Origin: Halococcus saccharolyticus DSM 5350
Lineage (GTDB): Archaea; Halobacteriota; Halobacteria; Halobacteriales; Halococcaceae
Assembly (NCBI RefSeq): GCF_000336915.1
Contig: NZ_AOMD01000033.1
Coordinates: 120,078-184,077 of the forward strand
Length of the DNA: 64,000 bases
Direction: 5' to 3'
Shown: piece after piece, positions 21,278 through 25,245 of the stretch
Layout: each line of letters starts with the position of its first letter
How positions within the stretch are numbered: the stretch's first letter is position 1
Made by a program: the position numbers and the translations under genes
The notes under the pieces: generated by a model
What the model saw: the letters and a program-made list of their open reading frames with translations, nothing else
Told to the model about the DNA's origin: nothing
Database searches by the model: none

Positions 21278-21700
21278 ATGGACTATCAGACACTCGACGC
21301 CGGCCGCGAGTTCGTCGCGCGGCTCGATACCGGTGCGGACTGGCGAAGCGAGATCGAGACGCTCGCTGCCGACGCCGGCGTCGACGCGGGGTTTTTCTTC
21401 GGGCTCGGCGCAGTTCAGGACGCCGAACTCTACTTCTACGACCAGGACACGAAGGAGTACGACGCGATCGAATTCGACGAACCGCTCGAAGTCGCGGCGT
21501 GTGTCGGCAACGTCTCGTGGCTCTCGGGTGATCGGTTTGCCCACACCCACGCGGTCTGCTCGCGCGAGGACGGCTCGACGATCGCGGGCCACCTCAACGC
21601 TGGAACGGTGTTCGCCGGCGAGATATACCTCCGCGAGTTCGACGCCCACCTCGAACGCGAGCGCGACGAGACGACCGATCTCGATCTCTGGCCGCTCTAA
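21278..21700 (+). CDS. PPC (DUF296) domain protein
   Basis: 140-aa plants-and-prokaryotes-conserved domain protein. It has FFFGLGAVQDAELYFYD, the metal-binding-like AHTHAV and the GHLNAGTVFAGEIYL signature. The ATG at 21278 begins the domain; upstream in-frame residues are arginine-rich and not family-like. Its TAA overlaps the ATG of the PolD2 gene (TAATG), so the two are translationally coupled. PPC proteins often trimerise and some bind AT-rich DNA. A role near replication is only suggested by position. Confidence 0.87.
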   Translation: MDYQTLDAGREFVARLDTGADWRSEIETLAADAGVDAGFFFGLGAVQDAELYFYDQDTKEYDAIEFDEPLEVAACVGNVSWLSGDRFAHTHAVCSREDGSTIAGHLNAGTVFAGEIYLREFDAHLERERDETTDLDLWPL

Positions 21701-24700
21701 TGCGCGCCGACGACGAACGCTACTTCGAGCGGATCGAATCCCAGCTCGACGAGGCGTTCGCGGTCGCTGAAACCGCACGCGGGAAAGGTGGCGATCCCAC
21801 TCCCGAGATCGAGATCCCCGTGGCGAAGGACATGGCCGACCGGGTCGAGAACATCCTCGGGATCGAGGGCGTCGCCGACCGCGTCCGCGAACTCGAAGGC
21901 GAGATGAGCCGGGAGGAGGCCGCCCTCGAACTCGCCGCGGACTTCGCGGAGGGGCGAGTCGGCGACTACGAGACCGACGCCGGCAAGATCGAGGGCGCGG
22001 TCCGAACTGCGGTTGCGCTCCTCACCGAAGGCGTGGTCGCCGCGCCGATCGAAGGGATCGATCGGGTCGATCTCGCCGAGAATCCCGATGGAACCGAGTT
22101 CGTCCGGGTGTTTTACGCCGGACCGATCCGCTCGGCCGGTGGGACCGCTCAGGCACTCTCGGTGCTCGTCGCGGACTACACCCGCGCGCTGCTCGGCCTC
22201 GCCGAATACGAGGCCCGCGAGGAGGAGGTCGAACGCTACGCCGAGGAGGTCGACCTCTACGACGCCGAAACTGGCCTCCAGTACTCCCCGAAAGACGCCG
22301 AGACGAAGTTCATCGCCCGGAACTCGCCGGTGATGCTCGACGGCGAGGCCACCGGCCAGGAGGAGGTCTCGGGCTTTCGCGACCTCGAACGCGTGGGGAC
22401 GAACAACCCTCGCGGCGGGATGTGTCTCGTGCTCGCCGAGGGGATCGCCCAGAAGGCTCCCAAGATCGAGCGCTACACCACCGATCTCGACGAGGTGGAC
22501 TGGCCGTGGCTCGACGACCTGATCGCCGGCACCATCGGGAAATCTGCCGGGAACGATGACGACGCTGACGGCTCGGATGCTGACGACGCCGAAGACCAGG
22601 CTGACGAAGCTGATGACGGCGACGAAACCGACGACGAATCGGAATCGGCTGCCGACGAGGATTCAGAACCCGACGGCCCGCTTCGGCCCGAGCCCTCGAC
22701 GAAGTTCCTCCGGGACCTGATCGCCGGCCGGCCGGTGTTCGGCCACCCGAGCGAGGCCGGCGGCTTCCGGCTGCGGTACGGCCGCGCGCGCAATCACGGC
22801 TTCGCGACCGCGGGGGTCCATCCCGCGACGATGCATCTCGTCGACGACTTCCTCGCGACCGGCACGCAGTTGAAGACCGAACGACCAGGAAAAGCCGCCG
22901 GTGTCGTGCCCGTCGATTCGATCGAGGGGCCCACCGTGAGGCTGGCGAACGGCGACGTCCGCCGGATCGACGATCCCGAGGAAGCCCTCGAACTCAGAAA
23001 CGGGGTCGAGGCGATCCTCGATCTCGGCGAGTACCTCGTCAATTATGGGGAGTTCGTCGAGAACAACCACCCGCTCGCGCCCGCCTCCTACACCCACGAG
23101 TGGTGGATCCAGGAGTTCGACGCGACCGACGCGAACGTCCAGGCGCTCGCGGACTCGACACGGGTCGATCTCGAACACCCCACTCCCGAGGAAGCGATCG
23201 AGTGGGCGATCGAGTACGACGCGCCGCTCCATCCCGAGTACACCTACTGCTGGCACGATCTCTCGGTCGAGTCGTTCAAAACGCTTGCCGACGCGGTCGC
23301 GGCGGGCGAACTCGTCAAGGGCGAACTGGCGCTCGAACCTGCGCCCGAGGTCCGTGACGCGCTCGAAGCGCTGCTCGTTCCGCACAACCAGGCCGCGGAC
23401 GCGCTTCGAATCACCGAATTCCGGGCGCTCGTCCGATCGCTCGGGTTCGACGAGAACTGCGATCGGACGTGGGAGCGCCTCTCGACGGAAGCGAGCGCCT
23501 GGCCGAACGCGATGAAGGCCGCCCGCGAGGTCGCGCCGTTCGCCCTCCGCGAACGCGCCCCGACCCGGATCGGCGGCCGGATGGGTCGCCCCGAGAAGTC
23601 CGAACAGCGCGAGCTCTCGCCCGCGGTCCACACCCTCTTTCCCATCGGCGAGGCCGGCGGCAACCAGCGCGACGTGAGCGCGGCGGCCGAGCACGTCCAC
23701 GACGACGTCGGGGAGCGCGGTGTCGTTCCCGTCCAGGTCGGTCGGCGCGAGTGCGTCGATTGCGGCGAACGGAGCTACGAGACGCGGTGCCCAGACTGCG
23801 GCGGCGTCACCGAGCCGCGCTACGAGTGTCGCGACTGCGAGATCGCGGTCGAACCCGACGAGTCGGGGCGGGCCGAGTGCCCGCGCTGCGGGAGCGAGGC
23901 AACCCCGACCGAGTGGCGCACGGTCGACATCCGCGAGGAGTTCCACGACGCGCTCGACGCGGTCGGCGAGCGCGAGAGCGCCTTCGACATGGTGAAAGGC
24001 GTGAAGGGGTTGACCTCGAAGCTCAAGACGCCCGAACCGATGGAGAAGGGCGTCCTGCGAGCGAAACACGGCGTTTCGTCGTTTAAGGACGGCACGGTCA
24101 GGTACGACATGACCGACCTCCCAGTGACGAGCGTCCGTCCCGCCGAACTCGACGTCTCGGTCGATCAGTTCCGCGAACTCGGCTACCACGAGGACATCGA
24201 TGGCGACCCGCTCCGCCACGCCGATCAGTTGGTCGAACTCCGGGTTCAGGACATCGTGCTCTCGAACGGCGCGGCCGAGCACCTCCTCCGGACGGCGGAT
24301 TTCGTCGACGACCTCCTCGACCGGTACTACGGTCTCGATTCGTTCTACGACTTCGACGATCGCGACGACCTCGTGGGCGAACTCGTGTTCGGGATGGCCC
24401 CTCACACTTCGGCGGCGGTCGTCGGTCGCGTCGTAGGGTTCACGAGCGCCGCCGTTGGGTACGCACACCCTTATTTTCACGCATCGAAAAGAAGAAATTG
24501 CGATGGTGACGAGGATTGTGTAATGCTGTTGATGGATGGGCTGTTGAACTTCTCGAAGGAGTACCTGCCGGACAAACGGGGTGGCCGGATGGACGCTCCG
24601 CTGGTGATGTCCTCGCGGATCGATCCCGCCGAGATCGACGACGAGGCCCACAACATGGACGTGGTCGAGCGTTACCCTCGCGAGTTCTACGAGGCGACCC

Positions 24701-25245
24701 TCGAAATGGCCGAACCAGGCAGCGTGGATATCGAGATCGCCGAGGAAAGTATCGGCACCGACACGGAGTACACTGGATTCCGCCACACTCACGACACCTC
24801 GAATCTCGCGCTCGGCCCCTCCTTGTCGGCGTACAAAACGCTGGGCGCGATGACCGAGAAGATGGACGCCCAGCTCGAACTCGCCAGAAAGCTCCGGGCC
24901 GTGGACGAGACCGACGTCGCCGAGCGCATCATCGAGTACCACTTTTTGCCCGATCTCATCGGCAACCTCAGAGCCTTCTCCCGTCAGGAGACGCGGTGTC
25001 TCGACTGCGGCACCAAGTACCGCCGAATGCCGCTCACCGGCGAGTGCCGCGAGTGTGGCGGCGGCGTGAATCTGACTGTCCACGAGGGCTCGGTGAAGAA
25101 GTACATCGACACCGCCACCCGGGTCGCCGAGGAGTACGGCACCCGCGACTACACCAAGCAGCGCCTCGAAGTGCTTGACAAAACTCTCGAAAGCGTGTTC
25201 GAGAACGACAAAAACAAACAGAGCGGGATTGCCGATTTCATGTAG
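21700..25245 (+). CDS. polC: DNA polymerase D large subunit (DP2)
   Basis: 1181-aa catalytic subunit of the archaeal replicative polymerase PolD, partner of DP1. The active-site motif NCDGDED spans residues 933-939. Two zinc-finger regions are visible: CVDCG/CPDCG/CRDC/CPRCG around 684-730 and CLDCG/CRECGGG near the C-terminus, the latter followed by the short tail that contacts DP1/PCNA (KQSGIADFM). Residues about 280-320 are a Asp/Glu linker. No intein is present. Codons over the active-site motif are AT-rich and atypical. Ends in a T-rich terminator. Confidence 0.96.
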   Translation: MRADDERYFERIESQLDEAFAVAETARGKGGDPTPEIEIPVAKDMADRVENILGIEGVADRVRELEGEMSREEAALELAADFAEGRVGDYETDAGKIEGAVRTAVALLTEGVVAAPIEGIDRVDLAENPDGTEFVRVFYAGPIRSAGGTAQALSVLVADYTRALLGLAEYEAREEEVERYAEEVDLYDAETGLQYSPKDAETKFIARNSPVMLDGEATGQEEVSGFRDLERVGTNNPRGGMCLVLAEGIAQKAPKIERYTTDLDEVDWPWLDDLIAGTIGKSAGNDDDADGSDADDAEDQADEADDGDETDDESESAADEDSEPDGPLRPEPSTKFLRDLIAGRPVFGHPSEAGGFRLRYGRARNHGFATAGVHPATMHLVDDFLATGTQLKTERPGKAAGVVPVDSIEGPTVRLANGDVRRIDDPEEALELRNGVEAILDLGEYLVNYGEFVENNHPLAPASYTHEWWIQEFDATDANVQALADSTRVDLEHPTPEEAIEWAIEYDAPLHPEYTYCWHDLSVESFKTLADAVAAGELVKGELALEPAPEVRDALEALLVPHNQAADALRITEFRALVRSLGFDENCDRTWERLSTEASAWPNAMKAAREVAPFALRERAPTRIGGRMGRPEKSEQRELSPAVHTLFPIGEAGGNQRDVSAAAEHVHDDVGERGVVPVQVGRRECVDCGERSYETRCPDCGGVTEPRYECRDCEIAVEPDESGRAECPRCGSEATPTEWRTVDIREEFHDALDAVGERESAFDMVKGVKGLTSKLKTPEPMEKGVLRAKHGVSSFKDGTVRYDMTDLPVTSVRPAELDVSVDQFRELGYHEDIDGDPLRHADQLVELRVQDIVLSNGAAEHLLRTADFVDDLLDRYYGLDSFYDFDDRDDLVGELVFGMAPHTSAAVVGRVVGFTSAAVGYAHPYFHASKRRNCDGDEDCVMLLMDGLLNFSKEYLPDKRGGRMDAPLVMSSRIDPAEIDDEAHNMDVVERYPREFYEATLEMAEPGSVDIEIAEESIGTDTEYTGFRHTHDTSNLALGPSLSAYKTLGAMTEKMDAQLELARKLRAVDETDVAERIIEYHFLPDLIGNLRAFSRQETRCLDCGTKYRRMPLTGECRECGGGVNLTVHEGSVKKYIDTATRVAEEYGTRDYTKQRLEVLDKTLESVFENDKNKQSGIADFM
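24458..24545 (+). other. AT-rich rare-codon patch over PolD2 active site
   Basis: Within a gene that almost always uses GC-ending codons, residues about 920-948 use TAT, TTT, AAA, AGA AGA, AAT, TGT, GTA and TTG. The patch covers KRRNCDGDEDCVML, the segment that DP2 inteins interrupt. Boundaries are by eye. Confidence 0.7.

Follow-up and report, generated by a model that had tools for sequence, protein, structure and literature searches.

The polC gene in the window (the whole 64,000-nucleotide stretch of Halococcus saccharolyticus DSM 5350 analysed here) carries a dense patch of rare, AT-ending codons at an empty intein insertion site. The chance that this patch is a homing-endonuclease footprint, i.e., a multi-codon synonymous divergence of the empty target, is put at about even. 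The patch lies on the insertion site itself, its counterparts are spread over a broad range of haloarchaea, its codons are hypervariable and the empty alleles avoid the core sequence common to intein carriers. From these patterns we infer selection, as opposed to mutation, as the driver of the changes, and a reduction of cleavage or homing as their effect.

Rare codons at the pol-IIa site of polC

The gene (21700..25245, forward strand) encodes the large subunit DP2 of DNA polymerase II (PolD). Its open reading frame matches NCBIfam TIGR00354/NF003103 (E=0) and, compared with its relatives, is uninterrupted and free of inteins. Codons are numbered here from the Cys of KRRN|CDGDED (codon 0, 24499). 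Although GC3 of the gene is 0.84, sliding GC3 falls to a minimum at 24463, where 4 of 15 and 6 of 20 codons are GC-ending (15- and 20-codon windows, respectively). When codons were shuffled within each amino acid, none of 5000 permutations gave a minimum as low in 20-codon windows, so the AT-rich patch described in an earlier note on this DNA is real. It is best delimited as codons -14 to +7 (24457..24522, forward strand), of which 8 of 22 are GC-ending; 14 AT-ending codons were observed against 2.9 expected after normalisation for amino acid, the next two bases and the composition of the gene itself. Synonymous changes at the insertion site are thus clustered beyond chance. The range 24458-24545 proposed in the earlier note holds the patch core but is generous at its right end, as the signal is only mild 3' of 24522. 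Adjacent AGA AGA codons occur in the patch and nowhere else in the gene, where AGA makes up 5 of 90 Arg codons, and for AT excess at -10 to +7 the allele ranks within the top 4% of intein-free alleles. Next-codon context on its own yields some rare codons (Glu before CT is GAA in ~65% of cases, for example at codon -40, 24379-24381), due to which correction for codon context matters in haloarchaeal genomes.

The insertion point of pol-IIa inteins, KRRN|C, falls between codons -1 and 0 (24498..24499, forward strand). Across 391 genomes of the class, the C-terminal half of DP2 is uninterrupted in ~40% and split in the remainder, and in family searches most splits fall at query residue 1-2 and fewer at ~31-32. 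In all 90 nonredundant intein-bearing genes in which both flanks were read, the split lies exactly at N|C. The inteins measure 176-228 aa (mini) or 488-517 aa (full), and three congeners of the host carry one of 493 aa. Both of the congeneric inteins scanned (G252 and G156) contain splicing domains together with LAGLIDADG_3 (E about 1e-15), while this domain is absent from the two mini-inteins scanned. Hence, KRRN|C in the window is the empty target of inteins that encode a LAGLIDADG homing endonuclease in congeners, and the earlier placement of the patch exactly at an intein insertion site was right. A second site, pol-IIb (KRGG|RMDAP; 24585..24586, forward strand), corresponds to the split at query residue ~31-32 and is also empty in the window; the congener G391 is split nearby.

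Both pol-IIa and pol-IIb are named for the DP2 gene in a published allele list (PMC4071816), which describes pol-IIa as an ancient and widespread allele that some lineages have lost. The gene and the insertion point are the same as in that report; the window differs in having no intein, and the present finding is about codon choice in the empty target (neither codon nor GC content occurs as a term in PMC4071816). As a separate observation, the full pol-IIa inteins L169, L171 and L172 match helix-turn-helix models weakly (Phage_CI_repr and HTH_23, with scores near or under the gathering thresholds) at residues 157-204, between the splicing and LAGLIDADG parts, and this region may represent a DNA-binding module of the endonuclease.

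Codon excess across haloarchaeal polC

The polC set comprised 164 intein-free, 54 full-intein and 38 mini-intein genes (92 intein-bearing), with about 69,000 background codons used for context normalisation. In both the intein-free and the intein-bearing genes, AT-ending codons reach 2-3 times expectation over ~30 codons on each side of pol-IIa. From about -33 to +28 (24400..24585, forward strand), most 5-codon bins of the intein-free genes have context-normalised observed/expected ratios of 2.3-3.3; the ratio declines at both ends and is near 1 outside. The right end of this zone coincides with the pol-IIb site (24585), beyond which there is no excess. Close independent intein-free pairs differ synonymously at 0.40 at the site as against 0.22 in the background (p=9e-13), i.e., about twice as much, while mini-mini pairs show no significant synonymous excess at the site (p=0.21). 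The close congeners G323 and G072 differ from the window at 13 and 14 of 24 site codons, with background differences of 0.22 and 0.17, respectively. Patches in polC are therefore general across haloarchaea, but their codons are not conserved.

The excess is position-specific even within one amino acid (-0.02, 0.55 and 0.07 at the His codons -32, -11 and -7), and the same rare CAT stands at codon -11 in carriers and non-carriers alike. In intein-free and full-intein alleles, the trough flanks the insertion point left and right; mini-intein alleles show it at its weakest on their N side. Codons ending in A and codons ending in T are each raised on either side, and deamination of single-stranded DNA after resection was rejected as a cause for want of any asymmetry. 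Amino-acid composition and next-codon context were likewise rejected, since the signal persists after normalising for both, and so was conservation, as conserved sequence continues past the trough edges and no trough occurs at conserved motifs lacking inteins. Furthermore, per-codon AT excess in intein-free alleles over 24397-24585 shows a period of ~3.15 codons (9.4 bp; permutation p=0.003 over all periods, post hoc), which is absent in a control stretch.

Dependence on intein state

Close to the site (-10 to +7), the excess follows the order intein-free > full intein > mini-intein (Kruskal p=1e-8). Matching alleles to their nearest neighbours gave intein-free alleles 2.3 additional AT-ending codons in this interval (83 pairs, p=1e-7; 51 close pairs, p=3e-4), with no difference at +7 to +29 or in control windows; as the pairs are greedy nearest neighbours instead of a full phylogenetic model, these p-values are approximate. 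The departure is sharpest in the core (codons -2 to +7; 24493..24522, forward strand), where intein-free alleles mismatch the consensus of carriers at 1.22 more codons (51 close pairs, p=3e-6), with no mismatch difference beyond -34. The core CGG AAC|TGC GAC is found in 14 of 164 intein-free alleles (9%) as compared to 36 of 92 intein-bearing ones (39%; p=7e-9), whereas AGA at -3/-2 occurs in 31 of 164 and 3 of 92, respectively (p=2e-4). In polC, empty alleles thus deviate from the target borne by occupied alleles. Where full inteins are locally more prevalent, the trough of intein-free alleles is no deeper (rho -0.10, p=0.2).

Other intein targets and control motifs

Similar signals were found at intein sites of two other replication genes. 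In 30 intein-free mcm genes, the mcm-a site in Walker A (GDPGTGK|S) is the top-ranked 20-codon window (rank 1 of 673); this position was confirmed in 20 intein-bearing genes and is likewise given in PMC10643990. After mcm-a, the highest internal peaks of mcm are two that fall close to SAGL|T and DKM(R)|S, which are intein sites in other genomes. In polB (31 intein-free genes), the two highest internal peaks fall on YGDTDS (YGD|TDS) and NSLYG, both of them intein sites, while correction for context left no clear peak at a third intein site of this gene, near residue 370. No AT-ending excess was seen at motifs that bear no intein in the searched genomes, namely Walker A of PAN (0.72) and of AtpA (0.96), NADFDGD of RpoA' (1.19), and SLYPM (0.60) and exo I of polB. 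Some haloarchaea have a known rpolA intein (PMC4071816), so RpoA' serves as a control for the searched genomes rather than for the whole class; mcm Walker B was not usable as a control because an intein site adjoins it. The codon signal thus marks intein sites in three replication genes and not active sites in general.

The earlier note had set against its own reading the case in which all intein-free haloarchaea show the same AT-rich codons owing to an unrelated constraint. Most of them do have an AT-rich trough, but the codons differ, and the signal recurs at other intein sites without extending to active sites generally. At mcm-a and polB-c, the trough of carriers is as strong as that of intein-free alleles (p=0.4 and p=0.2, respectively), so a greater deviation of empty alleles is not seen at every intein site, and the signal marks the site rather than its emptiness. 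Besides polC, the intein sites of mcm and polB were scanned in the host genome: the intein-free mcm (L349) has an AT-ending patch at the mcm-a Walker A (8 against 3.3 expected), and the polB-c site has none (3 against 2.5 expected).

Proposed mechanism

Inteins sit in invariant motifs, which are thought to deny their hosts any change of target. Haloarchaea, congeners of the host among them, harbour circulating pol-IIa inteins with LAGLIDADG endonucleases, and empty alleles would face cleavage and gene conversion, as established in Haloferax for other inteins. Because the protein motif belongs to a conserved catalytic region that cannot change, the DNA target could be altered through synonymous sites only. 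As endonucleases tolerate single synonymous changes, a resistant allele would need many of them; with GC3 already at ~84%, near saturation, nearly every available synonymous change would yield a rare AT-ending codon. Recurrent endonuclease pressure would thereby favour multi-codon synonymous escape and produce a cluster of such codons. Contact-dependent selection predicts a position-specific excess of the kind observed, unlike regional or uniform mutation. Selection to resist a homing endonuclease, one of the readings offered in the earlier note, fits the population data best.

Certain observations go beyond simple avoidance. The polC zone from -33 to +28 (~190 bp) is wider than a LAGLIDADG target, and nucleases of this family cut sites bearing several synonymous changes (PMC10643990, PMC3024317). 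Further, the common core of carriers could alternatively reflect homogenisation. Simple avoidance is insufficient to explain the wide zone together with the equal troughs of carriers at two other sites; these would require either mutagenic repair of cuts or an arms race whose invaded alleles stem from alleles that had diverged earlier. Selection against flanking homology is another possible contributor, since homing falls with shorter homology (PMC3024317).

Alternative explanations

The main rival to synonymous escape is mutagenic break repair, which is considered unlikely, if still to be reckoned with. Repeated cutting of empty sites followed by error-prone or synthesis-rich repair, or by homing, would raise GC-to-AT change, and the synonymous hits alone would survive, with no resistance needed. 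Haloferax provides a documented case of nuclease cutting followed by error-prone repair (PMC10643990), and both the doubled synonymous divergence and the two-sided trough, least pronounced on the N side in mini-intein alleles, agree with such a process; nevertheless, the left-right asymmetry of C-to-T and G-to-A was not found, the excess is not uniform along the zone and the avoidance of the carriers' core would call for an extra step. A constraint unrelated to inteins, such as slow codons at catalytic motifs for co-translational folding or another nucleotide-level function, with intein insertion being coincidental, appears rather improbable. Equally critical motifs without inteins lack a trough, synonymous variation across the zone is higher instead of lower, and trough depth in polC depends on intein state, even though the troughs common to carriers and non-carriers at mcm-a and polB-c, rare codons identical in all groups (CAT at -11) and the 9.4-bp periodicity would be in keeping with it. 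The loss of GC-favouring conversion is given very little weight. Here, presence/absence polymorphism of a 1.5-kb intein would block heteroduplex formation, so that a putative GC-biased conversion keeping GC3 high elsewhere fails locally; this would account for a roughly symmetric trough in both allele types, with a shallower N side where a mini-intein is present, but predicts neither the position-specific excess nor the avoidance of the core.

The earlier note had also suggested a co-conversion scar, in which flanks brought along by an intein from an AT-richer donor stayed after its loss, and had proposed nucleotide alignment with intein-containing and intein-free polC to find that donor. In the haloarchaeal polC set, such comparison revealed no clear donor and no close intein-bearing match; the best matches to the patch are intein-free alleles of other families (background identities for alleles with a two-codon length difference were taken on the N side). 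Flank distance does not follow intein distance (54 full-intein alleles, partial rho 0.07). With no donor and with flanks that do not track inteins, a scar is unsupported; the trough is moreover deepest in intein-free alleles and the codons of G323 and G072 differ from those of the window, making this origin improbable. In its favour are a 37-nt run identical between the patch and L019 (an intein-free allele of another family) and blocks resembling AAA AGA AGA AAT in L086 and L012. The L019 run leaves a small door open to a foreign origin of the patch, as had been proposed. At codons -11 to -8, the haplotypes CAC CCT TAT TTT and CAT CCG TAC TTT recur across families (L002, L086, L054, L384 and others), and CCT/CCA at -10 is strongly linked with TAT at -9 (p=4e-12), which hints that short blocks may be exchanged among empty alleles; the linkage also speaks for a scar. 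Near-identical patches between distant alleles number 218, against a mean of 160 and a maximum of 196 in a stratified null that kept column frequencies and AT level; with sharing just slightly above the null, regional transfer of one haplotype was rejected.

Relation to known systems and implications

The mcm/cdc21-a intein (PMC10643990) shares with the present system a life cycle of empty, invaded and mini states. In that study, nuclease pressure gave rise to escaper point mutations in the target DNA, and there was a hint of lower activity in some homologous sites that stayed uncut; its site comparison was made at the amino-acid level with stress on nuclease tolerance, whereas the signal here is one of synonymous composition over hundreds of genes. 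Homing of the polB intein in Haloferax volcanii (PMC3024317) likewise proceeds into empty sites and depends on target sequence and on the length of flanking homology, but the changes tested there were non-synonymous and single synonymous changes were stated to be tolerated in vitro. Target-site arms races are already known as an idea, while no description of a multi-gene rare-codon footprint at archaeal intein sites was found in the open-access literature searched for synonymous change or codon usage at intein targets; relative to that literature, the footprint appears new and its escape function is a proposal.

Extended beyond polC, synonymous escape would amount to silent-site immunity, in which dense rare-codon patches at intein targets of essential replication genes serve haloarchaea at large as a genome-wide defence against endonucleases; this broader proposal is tentative and falls somewhat short of an even chance. 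If it is true, such immunity becomes apparent because, where GC3 is saturated, an AT-ending codon results from every synonymous escape. Should silent positions indeed provide escape, genomes alone would suffice to measure the host's part in the intein life cycle, and the persistence of empty alleles beside active endonucleases would become directly testable. Codon patches would then mark sites under attack and allow a search for unknown intein targets, with patches predicting past or present targets in genes without a known intein. Under mutagenic repair as well, the patches would hold a record of cleavage history.
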